This document shows, piece by piece, positions 38,257 to 46,084 of a stretch of DNA of 64,000 nucleotides. Position numbers and translations under genes: made by a program. Each line of letters starts with the position of its first letter. Position 1 is the first letter of the stretch. The notes under the pieces were generated by a model. The model did no database searches. It was not told where the DNA came from and saw only the letters and a program-made list of their open reading frames with translations. The stretch covers positions 124,001-188,000 of the forward strand of contig NW_019029017.1 of NCBI RefSeq assembly GCF_002105155.1, given 5' to 3'. Source of the DNA: Lobosporangium transversale (taxonomy: Eukaryota; Mortierellomycota; Mortierellomycetes; Mortierellales; Mortierellaceae).

Positions 38257-39389
38257 AGAGTCAAGTTAAAAATAACAATATAAGAAAGAAGCTGTTTATA
38301 AAATAATAAAAATAAAAAATATGCCTATCGTTAAAGACGAATGACGAATGGAACTAACTTTGAAAAAGGAAATGAGTGGAATTTATAAATGTGTAGAAGG
38401 AAGAAAGGATGACGAGAAATCGAGGGACGATGCTACTACAAGACTTTACGACTTCAGATCATAATTATTAGGTTATTGGGGGATGAGAAACATGATAGTG
38501 CAAGAAATTTGGGCGAAATGATCTCTGATACTCTTTCTTTTATAGATTTAAAAGAATATAAAAAATGTGATAATTGTTTTTCCTAATTCCTTCCTATTAC
38601 CCCCCTTTTTCTTTTCTTTTTTTTCGACTAGGGCTGTGGGTGATTGAGGGCGTTATTCCTCTACTGAACCCTGGATTGTTTATTTTTTATTTTTTGAAAA
38701 AGCGTCAATGGGTTTGAGGATAAGAGTGGGCATGGGAAATAAATATGATATATAATAATATATTTATACAAACATGTATTTGTATATTTGTATAAATGTA
38801 TCTCTTGAGCGTGTAACTGTGGACCCACTTGCTGAGTTTATTTTCTTGTTTTAATGCCAAAAATGGTATTTTTTTTTATGCTTCTAAGCGTCCATACTAG
38901 ATTATGATCATGATCATCAACCACAAGTCAAGCCATGGAGGCGACTGTGAGTACAGCCTTATCTTGTTTAGTCTTGCCTTGATGTCTCTGCAATAGCGAT
39001 ACTATCATTCAGTGAGATGGTGAAAATAAATATATATGTCAATTGACTCTTTAATGCCAGATGAACTCTGATCTAGGTTTGTGACACAAACGAATGCGAT
39101 CGTGACTATCTTTGGTCACCTTCATTTGATCATGGCTGGTGATCGCATCCATTTGAAGACACTATCATTTGGATTTGACGTTCATCGATATCGCTGCATC
39201 CTTTATATAGTCCGTCCCATTAAAAAACGAGACATTCCATCTATTGTAAAAAGAAGAAATGTATTAGAACACAGAAATAAATAAATAAATAAATTAACCA
39301 AGAAAAAAAAGTACTATCAGGCCAATACTTACAATTTTTTTAAGACGAAGGCCTTTCTGGACCTAGTCATGTTTGTAGTAGATTGTGTC
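38257..39389. other. intergenic between ABC transporter promoter and Fanzor 3' end
   Basis: AT-rich, no gene. Carries nested stem-loops at 39094-39148 (listed separately) and an (AAAT)n tract near 39275-39297. Confidence 0.5.
39094..39148. other. nested stem-loop downstream of the Fanzor stop (candidate guide-RNA region)
   Basis: Outer 8-bp stem ATGCGATC (39094-39101) with GATCGCAT (39141-39148). Inner hairpin GTGAC (39102-39106) with GTCAC (39115-39119). Lies about 240-300 bases past the Fanzor stop codon. TnpB and Fanzor guide RNAs are usually encoded at the 3' end of the nuclease gene, hence the interest. There is no direct evidence that it is an RNA. Confidence 0.25.
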
Positions 39390-40161
39390 CTACTGTTGTT
39401 GCCGGCTTGTCTCTCCCCCTCCTCCTGGACCCAGCAAAGGTCCTTTCGGTGGTCTTGATCCCTCTACTCCTCCTCCTCCTTCATCTGAAAATTTCCTTTT
39501 TGTGGATCTGCTACTACCACCACCACTGCCACCACTACCTCCACCGCCGCCACTACCGCTAGAAGCTTGGCCTTGAGTTCCTCCATCCGGCGGCATATAT
39601 TTTGCAGGTCGTTTTTGCTCTCTTATCTGCAACTCACAGACCCTTGCGATGTTCTCAGCACCAACAGCATCTCGATCAAAGTATGCTTTACAATTTCGAC
39701 AGTACTTGGATCGAAAAGGAACATTCTCCAATATACTGTCACAGTGAGGCCGTGGACACTTGGCAGATGTGTAGTATTCATGACAACCTACAATGGGGTA
39801 GTCTAGAGATTTTGCCTGTTCGAGCCAGATTTAATACTCGTTAAAAAAAAGAGTCAAAAATTAAATGTCATTGATCAAAGGATTTTTTTTTTACCTTTTC
39901 AACAAGCTTCTTCATCAATATCCCATGCTTCGATACTTGCCCTCGGTTTGTCTTGAATGATCCTAGTCCAATACAGATCACCGCATTCGTATTGGCATCT
40001 CTTCTTCTTCCATTGCTTCCGCCCGCAAGCTTCAGAATTGCCTTGATCACATAATCAACCCATCCGTTCTGTGCTTTTCTATTATCCCAGCTATTCCGAA
40101 CAAACCACCCGTCATTATAGAAATCGACAAGTGCCCTATATATAGTCTCCCTATTGTCGTC

Positions 40162-40257
40162 ACTGGTCCCAGATCCACTGCTACTACTGGCCTCAACTCC
40201 ACTGCTACTACCGGTCCCTGCTCTACAGCTACTACTGGCCCCAACCCCACTACCAGA
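40162..40257 (-). repeat. 24-bp x 4 coding minisatellite inside Fanzor RuvC region
   Basis: Four imperfect 24-bp units (starting ACTGGTCCCAG, ACTGGCCTCAA, ACCGGTCCCTG, ACTGGCCCCAA on the plus strand) encode degenerate 8-residue Ser/Gly/Ala repeats. Unit length is a multiple of three, so copy-number change would not break the frame. Confidence 0.75.
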
Positions 40258-41693
40258 GAAACTACCTCCAGTACTTGATGGAGCTTGATTTAGCGGCAAG
40301 CTCATATAAGCGAAATACTGTGTTAAAGTAGGCCTTGAGAATGACGGAATATTGCTTTCAATCTCTGTAATTCCTCTTCTAAGCTTTCGCCTCTCTAGCT
40401 CGCCCTGAAACTTCTTGGATGGTTTGTAAAGGTACGCTCTAGAAATCCGGAGGATCTCACGTTCGTTAGGTTTCCTTGGATCCAACTTTGCAATTGTCAT
40501 CGAGTACCTCTCGCCTGGATCGATCCCAATGATAATGGTACTTTCGGGGGGAGGGCATGCTGCCTGGGTGTCATATTTAACTTCTACATTCTCGAGGAGA
40601 CGGGATCTCTGCTTCCAGTTGATCTCACGCCGGGGACTGGGACTCACCGGGGACAGTGGATTTGTGCTCGATGTACCTTCTTCAGCTGCTTCTTCTCCCT
40701 CGTCGCCATCTAAGAATGGTTCATCAGCTTCCAGCAAGTCAATATCGCTGATACCCAGCAAGATATCGTCATCTTCATTTCCGTCGTCGTCTCCATCATC
40801 ACCACCATCACCTGCACCATGGCCTGAAGACGAGGATCCCTGCTGAGCACTTGAAGAAGCCTGGACTGCTTGAGATCTTTGAGTATCCGAAGGTTGGGCA
40901 GCTTGCGAACCTCTACCTCTTTTTTGCTTCGATGTGTCATAGGCAAGAAGTGTTAGGGTAAGGCCGTTTGTAAAGAACGATGTCCGTAGTTTCCTTCTAG
41001 GACCATCATCAGATTGCAGTCCAACGTCCTTGTATCCTTTCAAGGAAAACAGTTCCTGCAACAATATCCCCTTGTGGTTAAGGATCTTGTCCTCCGCAGC
41101 CCCCTTGGTACTCATGTTTAGTTCCAACAATTGGACTATTTCCTCTCGAACTGTTGGGTTAGACCATAATATATCCAGGAGACAGGCTTCCGTTAGGCAA
41201 AGAGACCGAGGCGAGAAAGCAGACGTAGGGAAATCCAGATATTTTTTGGCAGTTGCATTTTGCTCAAAAAAGAATTGGATGGAACTTCTTCCATCGCCTG
41301 GAATATCTATGTCAAACTAGACATTATATTGAAGAAATGATTAGGAACATTTCTATAAACATATTATAAGATAACCTCAAAATATTATAATATTATATTT
41401 ACCTGCGCATTCCGATAGTGAGACCTTAGCGCTGCTTGAACAGGGACCATGACCATCCGAGACGACCTGCTGATCACCAAATCGGGATAGATCTGGTTTA
41501 AAGGACCAAGCCCTGTCTTTGCATAGAAGTTTTCGTATGCTTTGAGCTGGGACGGCTTGGCTACGTTCCCTTCGCCTTTTTTCTTCACTTCCCTGCTATA
41601 CCTAGATAATGGACTCATCACTCCGTGATACAACAACGCAGCAAGGCCGTAAATAAAGTCCCTGCTATCAAGAACTTCATCTAGGAGTTGTGG

Positions 41694-42171
41694 TGTTGTA
41701 AATAGTAGGTGTATCTTTGCTTAAGGGGCAAAAAGATAGACACAAAATCAGGAAAGGACAGTACAAAGAGTGTCAACAAGAATAACAAGAGAAAATAAAG
41801 ACAAACAACCTTGACGACAAACAGCGCCATAGGATGTCGAAAGAGAAAGATGGGAGCTTTATAGGTTAGCTCACAAACTGAGTTCCTGGACGGCAAATGC
41901 TTGTTGTGAAAAGGGGAAAAGATAATAGCAAGAACAAGACGTATGGGGAAAACTAAAGACTTTATTGAGGAAGAAGTTCTTTGGCTTTTATAACTTAGCC
42001 TACAGGCCTGACTGTGGTGCTTTCTAGGTGAGGTGGACTCACCGATAGCTTAAGGCTTTGCACAAAGGTTCTTTTAACTGTGGATCGACAGAATGTCCCG
42101 ATTAGTAGATACAAAGTAAAAATAAAATAGTTATAATTAATTTATATAACTATTAATGACCAGCCACAACA
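41694..42171. mobile_element. solo LTR inserted in the Fanzor gene
   Basis: 478 bp, begins TGTTGTAAAT and ends CCACAACA, so the termini form TGTTGT/ACAACA inverted repeats. It is flanked on both sides by GTGG (41690-41693 and 42172-42175), a 4-bp target duplication. A second diverged copy in the same orientation lies at 45329-45789. No internal retrotransposon genes are present, so it is a solo LTR. Deleting the LTR plus one GTGG joins the Fanzor frames without a shift (..NPADLPQLLDEVLDSRD..). Confidence 0.85.
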
Positions 42172-42806
42172 GTGGGAGATCAGCTGGATTGGATGGCCCA
42201 GTGGTAAGCAGGTTATCGATCCACAAGGCGCAGGCCCAGAAAGCTTGAATCCGTGCCTCGTTCAACATTTTAATAAACGATTGAATGAGCCCTTGAATTG
42301 TTGCAGCAAGTTGCTCGGGATTGAGATTGGGATCGGAAGTAGAGTCCAGCTTGGCAACTACACATGTCTTTAACGTGCCCAGAGTTAATGCAACAGTGGG
42401 GTGGGCCCTCTTCAACCGTCGGTCCTCGGCAGTAGCCTCCTTCACTTTCCTGGTCTTATCAGTCTTTCTGATATACTTGGCCTTCCCTTTGTTCTTCTTT
42501 TTTTTCTTCTTTTCCTCCTTAACCTCCTCTTCTTTGTCATCCTCTTTTTTTTCCTTTTCCTTTTTTTGGGGGACTTTCTTTGACGGCTGGAGCTGACGGG
42601 ACGGTCGTGTTGTTTGCAGTTGGTCAGGTCATATTTCTTAGGGGAAAGTTCCTTTTTCTGGGTAGGGAAAAAAGGCCGATAGCGATTCGGCTTTGCGCGT
42701 TTAGGGATATAGAATCTAATTAGGAACAACAATGTCAAGGGTTAGATGACTTTTTTTTTTTTTTTTTTGTATATGCTTTGGAAAATGTTCGTTTGAAGGA
42801 GCTTAC

Positions 42807-43828
42807 CTGGGTTGAGGTTGATTATTTTTATTCTGGTACCTAGCAGATATCGCAGTCCTCATTCTATCATGGTAATGAAGGAATCTTTCAGCGGTTGGTT
42901 GCTGTGAAGCCTGGGTTTGGATCCTACCAAAGAAAACATTAATTGAATGGTCAAACTGGCCTTCTGCAGGAGTTCGACGGCTACGGGCATGGACCTCACG
43001 AACATATGATACCGTCAACTTTTCGGCATCAGTGTCAGTGAGCGCAGAGATAATCTCAGCATTTGTAGCAAGACCAAAGGTTGGGATATTTGGGGTGTAA
43101 TCGTTATCGGATATAATGCCATAGACCAGGAGTTGACTGTCCCTTGAAAACCCAAGGGCTTGCAGGACCTCTTGTTTCTCATAGAGTGCAAACATGTGAT
43201 GGCGACGAGGGATTGGACGAAGAACTCTTTTTATAGAAGGATAGATGAGAAGGTCAGAGTCCCCAGACACAGCGATACTGGTTGGTGTACATTTGGCGGC
43301 AATACACACATCAGCCTCATTTCTACAATGGCAAATCACATAGTTATTGTATCGACCGAATGGCGCCGCGAGCTCCCTCTTCTCGTTATGACTGAATGTG
43401 AAGAGCTGTCGAAGATTCTTTTTAATGGCAATCATATGGCTTCGAGATTCCCATTTGCCTTCATTGGACTTGGTTTCCATGTTGGCTATGAGCGTATCGA
43501 GTTTTGCATCCGCTGCTGTACGCTTAGCATCTCGGTCCCTATAGGCGCGCGTTTTTTCTTCGCAGCGAGGCCCATCAATGTGTATCGTCACTGTGGCAAG
43601 AGGACCAAAGATCTTTCGAATGATACTAGCCATAGCATGGCCGCAGGCAGTGAAAGAACTCTGCCGGCTGAATCTCCTTAGGATGATATTATGTATATCG
43701 CTGTGGAAAGTGCCAAGCAGATCCAGCTCAAAAGATGAATGGGGTTCAGCAGCAAGCTCATGTACATCAATCTCCTTTGGTGGCAGGCCTCTCCTTGAAA
43801 GGTATGAATAGAGTCCTTTAATACCCAT
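42807..43828 (-). CDS. XPG/FEN1-like nuclease module, first exon of the Fanzor gene model
   Basis: Starts MGIKGLYSYLSRRG at 43828 and runs 340 codons to a GTAAGC donor at 42806. All Mg-binding positions of the XPG/FEN1 fold appear present: Asp36 (FELDLLG), Asp85 (IHIDGPRCEEKTRAYRDR), Glu171/Asp173 (RNEADVCIAA), Asp190/Asp192 (VSGDSDLLIYPS) and Asp243 (SDNDYTPNIPTFG, the helix-two-turn-helix start). It is shorter and more divergent than housekeeping FEN1, EXO1 or XPG. The next acceptor (CTAATTAG at 42716-42723) joins in phase to RFYIPKRAKPNRYRPFF and a Lys-rich linker leading to the Fanzor module 0.6 kb on, with no stop or promoter visible between. So one fused XPG-Fanzor protein is the simplest model; two adjacent genes is the alternative. 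Confidence 0.8.
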
Positions 43829-44230
43829 CTAGAGAAAGTATAGTGTAAAACAGTGCAAGCAATGTTGGTTTAAGCGGCTAAAGATTGAAGCTGAAGTTGT
43901 TAGAGTAGAGATAGTTTACCTTTAAGAAAGCAAAAAGTTATGATCTGTGAGGGGATGAGGGTGTAAGAGTACGGGTGAGAGCGCGAAAGCAATGTCGTTG
44001 TAAAATGAGAGAGAGAGAGGGAAAAGAGAGGAGGCAGGACGTATTTATAGGTGTATGAAAGAGAACGAAACAAAAGGCTGATGAATTTGGAACAACTCGA
44101 AACAATAAGATTCTCAGCGACAAGTTTTAACTTTTTGGATTTCGAGTATTGTTTACAGTCTTCTCCAATCATCTACATTTACCAAATCAAGCCTTCGCCA
44201 TGACAATCAACAAGAAATAAAAAAAACAGA
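43829..44230 (-). promoter_or_regulatory. promoter/leader of the XPG-Fanzor gene
   Basis: Minus-strand CTATAAATAC at 44050-44041 is a TATA-like box about 215 bases before the ATG. A possible 91-bp leader intron spans 43919-43829 (donor GTAAAC, acceptor CTAG ending directly at the ATG). Its length equals the first coding intron (42716-42806). Confidence 0.4.
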
Positions 44231-44930
44231 CTTCCTTACGTCCCCCCTCGGTATGTGTATCTGTCTGAACACGTCCTAACTGACATCCTCTCGACAATCC
44301 TTCCAAGGCTGCAGTGTTTGAATGTGTACAGGGAACAAAAGAGGTCTAGATACAGGCTCTCTTTGTGACATTGAAGGAGATCGCATGTTTCATGGCTATC
44401 AAGACAAGGTACCCCTACAGGCACAAGACAAAGGTATAACTCGGTTCAAACTCAAAGGAACGATTTTACCAATGGCCTTGTTCTGAATCCACTTGCCTAT
44501 GACACAGTCCAGACGAAGAGACAGCAGCAGTCTGACGTAGATGAAGAAGATCTCAGCCAGGAATTGAAACTTTCTCAAGGATTCCTTAACACGGCGTGTT
44601 TTAAAGGCAGCCGGTGAAGACCTGACAGATGAAGACTACGCAAACATAAACTGGAAGAGGAGCCCCAAACTTCTTGAAAACGTTGGACTCATATTCCATG
44701 AGCTAGGGCGATGCTCATCTGCAAATACCACAACTACCGTCTAATGCGATCCTGGTATTGTAATGCCCTTACGTTTTCTTCGCTAGACCGTCACAACCCT
44801 GACCTGCGTCAAACGGTGAAGGTGAGAAGTAGGCTCGTCAACAGCCTGTGTGTCTTATATGCGTTGCACCAATGCTCACTGATAGGTTGGGAGGAAAGAC
44901 ACCAAGCCGGCAACAACAATAGGATATGAT
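44231..44930 (+). pseudogene. decayed second Fanzor copy, opposite strand
   Basis: Fragments in shifting frames follow the neighbouring Fanzor in the same order. YVYLSEHVLTDILS (from 44231) matches LCLTEACLLDILW. NDFTNGLVLNPLAYDT (about 44458-44510) matches FFTNGLTLTLLAYDT. NINWKRSPKLLENV (about 44645) matches INWKQRSRLLENV. A CDPG block followed by ALTFSSLDRHNPD (about 44743-44800) matches IDPGERYSMTIAKLDPRKPN. Stops and frameshifts separate all of them, and the zinc-finger end is missing. Sequence divergence shows it is not a recent copy of the minus-strand gene. Confidence 0.72.
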
Positions 44931-45328
44931 CAGTTGCATATTTCACAGTACACGTGTTACATGAAAATTTATAATACAGACATACAGTACTAACAGCTCT
45001 ATGCCCCGAGACAAACTTGCAGTTTTATTTTGATACAAATTTGGATAAATGCCCCATGGATGTGATGTGTGAACCCACATCCTATTCTCACTTCTGCTCC
45101 CTGGTTACTATTTGTCTGTCTAAAATTTTTCATGAGCTACTACAAACATGACTAGGTCGGGAAAGGCCTTCGTCTTGAAAAAGTTGTAAGTATTAGCTCG
45201 ACAGTGCTTTCTTGACTAATCTCTTTATTTCTATGCTTGGTCTAGATGGTGTTTTTTTATGGGGAGGACTATTTAGACAACATATAGACCCCACATATCT
45301 TAATCATAATAAATTGGTTTGGTGGCAT
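44931..45328. other. no gene seen between Fanzor relic and LTR copy
   Basis: AT-rich DNA without recognisable coding or repeat content. Confidence 0.4.
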
Positions 45329-45789
45329 TGTTGTAAAAAATATCTTTGCTTAAGGGACAGAAAGATAGACACAATCAGGAAAAGGCAGGACAAAGGGCGT
45401 CAACAAGATTAACAAGAGAAAATAGAGTCAAATAACCTTGACTACAAACAGCACCATAGAATGTCAAAAGATGGGAGCTTTATAGGTGAGCTCACAAACT
45501 GAGTTACCGGAAGACAAATGCTTGTTGTGAAAAGGGGAAAAAGATAAATGGCAAGATGAACTGCAGGTGAAGAATAAGACATATGGGGAAAACTGAAGAC
45601 TTTATTAAGAAGGAAGTTTCTTTGGCTTTTATACTCGGTAGCTTCTTTGGCTTTTATACTCGGTAGCTTCTAGGTGAGGCGGACCCGCCTATGACTACAA
45701 AGGCTTTGCGCAAAGATTCCTTTAAGCTGGTTCGACAGATTAGTGGATACAAAATAAACTGAAATTAACTTTAATGACCAGTCACACCA
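45329..45789. mobile_element. second, older copy of the LTR
   Basis: 461 bp, similar along its whole length to 41694-42171 (shared blocks such as TATCTTTGCTTAAGG, TGGGAGCTTTATAGG, CAAATGCTTGTTGTGAAAAG, CTTTAATGACCAG). Contains a 25-bp perfect tandem duplication (45618-45642 and 45643-45667) absent from the other copy. No clear target duplication, consistent with greater age or recombination. Confidence 0.75.
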
Positions 45790-46084
45790 CTTGCAATAAC
45801 AAGCGAGTCAATTGGCTGCCAATACATTTAAGAGTATTCAAAAAATATAAGGGATCGCGACCAAATGGAACGGGCTATACTGATCATATTAACAAAAATG
45901 TGCTTTATTTTAATTTATTTTTTTTGAATGAAGTAGTAGGATTTCAAAAAAAAATAAAAATAAAAAAAGTTGTCCTGTACATTTCTAATGACGAATGGGA
46001 AAGATGAAAATGGGTACTTCAAGCTGTATTAAGTTCATTCTCAACTAATGTAAATCCTTCATGTAAAATACAGTAGAATAGACC

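Follow-up and report, generated by a model that had tools for sequence, protein, structure and literature searches.

The question raised by this locus is whether one transposon gene joins an XPG/FEN1-type nuclease to a Fanzor on a single polypeptide chain. It lies in the soil fungus Lobosporangium transversale (Mortierellaceae), in a 64,000-nucleotide stretch of contig NW_019029017.1 that we call the window (C61:124001-188000 in a genome of 42.7 Mb and 127 contigs), where the minus strand from 43828 down to 39390 reads first through an XPG/FEN1-like module and then through a Fanzor module. The initial annotation proposed from the letters of the window that one protein joins the two. By comparison with other copies and with proteins of other species, we find that the fusion is very probably real at the gene level, and that the central point of the proposal is supported by an intact genomic copy, a shared intron phase, and single-chain proteins in four other species.

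The two nuclease modules

As reconstructed from the family, the element encodes one four-exon gene on the minus strand, with a predicted protein of ~1.2 thousand residues, in which a lysine-rich linker connects a 5' nuclease of the XPG/FEN1 family at the N-terminus to a Fanzor at the C-terminus. Exon 1 (42807..43828) begins at an ATG at 43828 and supplies the XPG/FEN1-like nuclease domain in 340 complete codons plus 2 bases. Intron 1 (42716..42806, AG/GTAAGC...TAATTAG/ATT) has phase 2, and the XPG frame stops at the donor if this intron is retained. The start codon, the full set of FEN1-type acids, the donor after 42807, and the acceptor before 42715 with its in-phase join to exon 1 had all been proposed before, and reading the sequence confirms them, with both splice coordinates exact. 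Exon 2 (41403..42715) carries a conserved junction of the FYI...RPVF type, the lysine-rich linker, and the N-terminal region of the Fanzor; in the window copy this exon is interrupted and out of frame. The four-exon reading of the copies places intron 2 at 41317..41402 (GTAAAT...TGTCTAG) and intron 3 at 39816..39894. Between these, exon 3 (39895..41316) holds the Fanzor core, recognized by the RuvC-I motif IGIDPG at 40530-40513. Exon 4 (39390..39815) holds the repositioned RuvC-II glutamate at 39779-39777, then the zinc finger, the RuvC-III motif FDRD at 39680-39669, a low-complexity tail, and the stop codon. IGIDPG, finger, and FDRD are where the initial annotation had put them. The tail has glycine/serine-rich repeats at 39420-39600, and it is longer in the C46 copy, so repeat number varies between insertions.

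The XPG half is not one that Pfam names. Window exon 1 is below the Pfam gathering scores for XPG_N and XPG_I, and among the eight members XPG_I matches five (best E = 0.018) and XPG_I_2 matches two (best E = 0.0021), none of them above cut-off, which is a likely reason that this half has so far gone unnamed. Profile A3, made from eight sequences, was matched to PDB, where 30 of the 36 matches at E <= 1 are FEN1, Rad2, EXO1, and XPG chains, the best at 2.3e-7, and the other six are unrelated. D36, D85, E171, D173, D190, D192, and D243 are invariant in A3, as are K92 and R99 (8/8 each); the N-terminal G2 is present in 7/8, the P0005 model starting late. The decayed copy C66 has N at position 192. 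In an alignment to 1a76, the invariant positions follow the spacing of the FEN1 acids and gateway residues, and we take the seven acids to be the FEN1 metal ligands and K92 and R99 to be the gateway Lys and Arg. After the last Asp there is a helix-turn-helix stretch. A resemblance arising by accident from short motifs is ruled out by the nine family positions together with the PDB profile matches. The 5' polarity of the nuclease would be that of its FEN1 and EXO1 relatives.

The Fanzor half is recognized more directly. The zinc-binding domain PF07282 scores above cut-off in the window with E = 6.9e-7, the final RuvC Asp is in FDRD, and the RuvC-II glutamate is found six residues before the zinc finger, in HEYYTSAKC. 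According to PMC10711439, DPG combined with a glutamate repositioned in this way is the Fanzor fingerprint. Four of the eight proteins tested have it, and these are the full-length ones (the C51 copy, P0003, P0006, and P0007); the four negative ones are cut short or altered. Against PDB, the C-terminal profile A4 finds its best match in the Fanzor SpuFz1 (8gkh, E = 4.8e-4), whereas the full-length profiles do worse, with only E = 0.14 for A2 and no Fanzor match at E <= 1 for A1. Both catalytic centers are conserved, and guidance by RNA would be expected by analogy to the Fanzor relatives.

The join in other copies and other species

Our genome lists of zinc-finger and XPG matches are lower bounds. 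They include 14 further XPG exon copies with 98-99% identity to that of the window, while other pieces are at ~50-79% and many at ~30%. Both splice sites were found in 16 close-family copies, and a 17th has a changed acceptor. Five of the 16 (C73b, C37b, C51, C89, and C1) have no stop between the junction and the end of exon 2, and their exon 1 is open too. The C51 copy has a 1209-aa frame, open over four predicted exons with phases 2, 0, and 0, that continues past the zinc finger and the last RuvC Asp. Its first 1162 residues are in the family frame, and only the last ~47, a low-complexity tail after the catalytic motifs, are frame-shifted. The linker had been said to run in frame into the Fanzor; this holds for copies elsewhere in the genome, in C51 throughout, and fails for the window copy as described below. 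The junction is at residue 341 of the C51 protein and the next Met is residue 491, so the conserved junction sequence can be translated only as a continuation of the upstream exon.

A divergent subfamily (C14 type, ~31% identical) has the same join, with intron 1 at the same position and in the same phase. Seven of its copies have the donor, the acceptor scanned for is present in five of the seven, and the join is phase 2 in all five, across an intron of 84 bp whose branch sequence is TACTAAT. The sequence at the junction is FYIAEGS..NQFRPIF in the divergent subfamily versus FYIPKRA..NRYRPVF in the close family. Copies C66 and C2 are open for 618 aa, whereas stops are reached at 372, 530, and 600 in the remaining three.

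One objection is that XPG and Fanzor genes only share the element as neighbors and are never joined except in a gene model, and the proteins deposited in databases are indeed gene models. Chance adjacency of the two is ruled out: for 40 of 69 Fanzor zinc-finger matches an XPG match lies upstream in the same orientation at a distance of up to 6 kb, versus 2/69 with one on the opposite strand and 1/69 with one downstream. These 40 pairs are not 40 independent events, because many copies are related by recent transposition. An arrangement of unjoined neighbors would leave unaccounted for the constant order, the kept intron position and phase, the kept junction motif without a start codon, the length of the open frame, and the recurrence of the join in four other species. 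In the C41 copy of the divergent subfamily, moreover, a deletion puts the XPG domain and the linker into a single 512-aa frame. We therefore consider the objection very unlikely to be right.

For other species, two non-exhaustive protein searches, limited to scoring the roughly 8000 candidates with the most words in common, gave eight relatives, P0001 to P0008, with both XPG and Fanzor parts in seven of them. The whole plan is on one chain only in P0003 of Podila verticillata (1260 aa) and in P0006 (1186 aa) and P0007 (1502 aa) of Mortierella alpina. The partial P0005 of M. antarctica and the Benniella proteins P0002 and P0008 have both parts and end before the zinc finger, and P0004, also from Benniella, has both parts with the middle missing. 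P0001 is a 5'-truncated L. transversale model with the same splice junction as the family. Matches of P0003 in divergent-subfamily copies break where exon 1 ends at about residue 343 and exon 2 resumes at 346, so the join is colinear between the two. The two halves have diverged together, their identity matrices correlating with r = 0.86 (permutation p = 0.0008, 8 sequences), and r = 0.55 (p = 0.006) without P0005. Intact relatives that always keep the modules as separate genes would have refuted the initial annotation, and this is not what is found: there are single-chain relatives, though XPG-less members exist. A search with the Fanzor half of P0003, subject to the same limits, returned only P0003 and P0005, too few to speak for or against XPG-free close relatives in other species. 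Viral contigs gave no match to six exact peptide patterns from P0003.

Together, the intact copy and these proteins of other species point to a join of the two modules that is real and old. One gene making one chain is supported by that copy, by an in-phase intron whose position two divergent subfamilies share, and by the single-chain annotated proteins of four other species.

Proposed function and spread of the element

The initial annotation had suggested that guided cutting together with flap or end processing could serve homing, transposition, or self-removal. TnpB and Fanzor are thought to aid their transposons by cutting empty donor sites, with repair then restoring the element. In such a setting, a second nuclease on the same chain could act as follows. 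The Fanzor half would carry an RNA with a guide copied from the DNA flanking the element, and would cut the empty site left by excision and also allelic empty sites. At that break, the tethered FEN1/EXO1-like half would remove 5' flaps or trim the 5' ends. Trimming would block simple rejoining and bias repair toward copying the element back from the sister chromatid or homologue. We put the probability of this reading, in which the trimming of 5' ends is built into an RNA-guided cutter and favors homologous repair and hence retention of the transposon, at roughly 0.5. The fuller proposal, that the transposons of Mortierellaceae have evolved in nature a "guided cut and resect" enzyme on one chain, whose tethered FEN1/EXO1-class 5' nuclease dictates how the break is repaired, is more tentative, and we lean slightly away from taking it as established. 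T5 exonuclease and EXO1 are members of the FEN1/XPG superfamily. Engineering lends the mechanism plausibility: T5 exonuclease has been fused to the N-terminus of Cas12a as T5exo-ErCas12a (PMC8945719), and a Cas9 tool based on human exonuclease 1 is described in PMC11107001 as raising homology-directed repair and lowering non-homologous end joining.

The fusion might also be made and its XPG half put to another use, such as trimming the guide RNA or processing transposition flaps or hairpins, and not act at the guided break. Nucleases of other substrates occur among XPG/PIN-like folds, the catalytic residues are conserved, and no transposase was seen in the other open frames of the element, by inspection; eight frames of its 5' region have no Pfam family above cut-off. 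However, the DNA 5' nucleases FEN1, Rad2, and EXO1 are its nearest solved relatives, and mobility need not involve the XPG half, as the following elements suggest. We regard this other use as unlikely.

The 29 zinc-finger matches without an upstream XPG include XPG-less derivatives of the close family and Fanzor-like genes of another lineage. In seven derivatives that keep the sequence up to window position 44215 (L047, L050, L058, L059, and L066-L068), 1.08 to 1.43 kb of other sequence takes the place of the part corresponding to 44215-41171. The replacement is mostly 96-99% alike between copies and partly matches, reversed, the 5' regions of the divergent subfamily; several of the derivatives have a common further internal deletion. 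The genes of the other lineage have GLDLGQ (L003/L094, on C106) or GLNLGQ (L004, on C62) instead of DPG, together with NEYYTSKKC and HRD motifs. Upstream of the gene on C106, the one locus of this kind read in that direction, there is no XPG but a neighbor that is, named by eye, proteasome-ATPase-like.

A source of transposase is suggested by L093 (C37:189860-196860), a ~7-kb element with near-perfect 1.35-kb inverted repeats whose terminal 44 bp are common to the window element at 91%. It encodes a 621-aa candidate for a Tc1/IS630-like transposase, with weak Tc3-HTH and DDE_3 matches below cut-off. The window element was probably moved in trans by a DDE transposase such as this candidate, and trans-mobilization by an L093-type transposase would explain why XPG-less derivatives are multi-copy. 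L093 also holds a small frame with a weak HSDR_N match.

Several observations weigh against a functional guided cut-and-trim protein, and we collect them here. The first is that the window copy is dead and cannot make the fusion protein, contrary to what was first supposed for it; as a working gene it is ruled out. Where the initial annotation saw no terminator or promoter between the modules, exon 2 is in fact split by a 478-bp LTR-like repeat (41694..42171, unstranded, TGTTG...CAACA) flanked by CCAC target duplications at 42175-42172 and 41693-41690, and comparison of the copies places the loss of frame in an A-rich tract of the linker. The insertion is absent in 18/18 other copies spanning the site, one more (C2:421053) having a small deletion there, and at least 41 matches to the repeat occur genome-wide. 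Next, the deposited fusion proteins are models that possibly join exons wrongly, and most are incomplete. Derivatives without the XPG half are multi-copy, so an element can spread without having that half in cis. The guide RNA was not located, because folding of the last 215 nt at the right end shows nothing unusual (z = -0.34). Finally, DNA identity shows no coding constraint at the join, because in the older copies intron 1 is conserved above the exons, at 0.89-0.92 versus 0.83-0.87 for exon 1 and 0.80-0.83 for the junction. Differences at the junction in four older copies do fall unevenly on codon positions 1, 2, and 3 (27, 27, and 46 of 177 each, binomial p = 0.006), a skew that is only suggestive, the copies sharing ancestry. 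A fifth copy, C83, which lacks the region by BLAST and aligns poorly there (25, 24, and 22 of 43), was left out of this sum.

The conserved intron brings in another explanation, in which the locus makes two proteins: intron 1 would usually be retained to give a free XPG nuclease of 341-346 aa, and the fusion would appear only upon splicing, with the intron as a possible splicing switch. In both subfamilies, the phase-2 join puts an in-frame TAA into the donor GTAAG, and an unspliced message would encode a complete XPG protein. That TAA is automatic with any phase-2 GTAA donor, hence no sign of design, and a Fanzor made alone would lose its conserved N-terminus, there being no ATG in exon 2 before the conserved part. 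We think a two-protein locus quite improbable, and continue to favor a fused protein that cuts under guidance and trims the 5' ends.

As to the element as a whole, alignment of copies and a scan for ends give 39206..45879 on the minus strand, ~6.7 kb including nested insertions, with terminal inverted repeats (TIRs) of the pattern TATAGYCCGTYCCATT at 45864..45879 (left) and 39206..39221 (right). Allowing up to 1 mismatch, this pattern has 152 matches in the genome versus 3 for a reversed control pattern. TA/TATA stands at each end, where a target duplication would be indistinguishable from the end of the TIR. The whole is a DNA transposon bounded by terminal inverted repeats, and its target type is probably TA. 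Its left part contains an older LTR-like relict (45341..45785, unstranded, limits approximate) that is also present in other copies. In the 5' region there is an antisense fragment of a Fanzor exon of the divergent subfamily (44287..44833, plus strand), with ~86% identity, reversed, to the C14, C66, C69, C2, and C41 copies. Transcription of this 546-bp piece along with the gene, if it occurs, could produce antisense RNA against the rival family.

Comparison with known systems

In the open-licence literature searched, we found no report of an XPG-Fanzor fusion. The nearest wording is in PMC11071296, where "candidate Fanzor flap endonuclease homologs" stands for two viral contigs without detail, in passages that describe no such fusion. 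As far as that literature goes, XPG-Fanzor appears to be a new architecture within the Fanzor kind. It suggests that Pfam-based annotation can overlook additional catalytic domains in Fanzor proteins. If the proposed function is true, the end-processing enzyme comes with the RNA-guided nuclease itself. This would bear on the ways in which Fanzors promote transposon survival in eukaryotes, and naturally tested cut-plus-resection proteins would become candidates for genome editing.

The Fanzor half is like Fanzor1 (SpuFz1, PpFz1, and relatives), the eukaryotic OMEGA nucleases of transposons, in having DPG, the glutamate six residues before the zinc finger, the final Asp, and a transposon with TIRs and TA ends. 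Known Fanzor1 proteins are mostly 600-700 aa (PMC11423790), whereas the present one is preceded by a basic linker and, before that, by another nuclease domain of ~340 aa. The only extra domain described for a known Fanzor1 in the portions of the literature examined is the small FRI insertion of PpFz1. The XPG half is like FEN1, EXO1, and XPG(Rad2) in its MG start, seven acids, gateway Lys and Arg, and helix-turn-helix after the last Asp; unlike them, it is below the Pfam cut-offs, transposon-borne, and the N-terminal half of a predicted RNA-guided nuclease.

At the level of the element, mariner TIRs and TA duplications combined with the lack of a transposase are known from the Fanzor1 elements of Bao and Jurka (PMC3627910). 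Their mariner-type PGv-1 (Bao and Jurka 2013) is similar in plan, with TIRs, TA targets (probable for the window element), and a Fanzor alongside another nuclease; in PGv-1 that nuclease is GIY-YIG and a separate protein, whereas here it is XPG-type and fused. At the level of the protein, the resemblance is to the T5exo-Cas12a and Cas9/exonuclease 1 editors, which also combine a 5' nuclease with an RNA-guided nuclease, at the N-terminus in T5exo-ErCas12a as it is here. Those editors are man-made, while the present combination is natural, conserved, and built with a Fanzor, and if it works as proposed it would be the natural counterpart of the arrangement that engineers built as T5exo-Cas12a.

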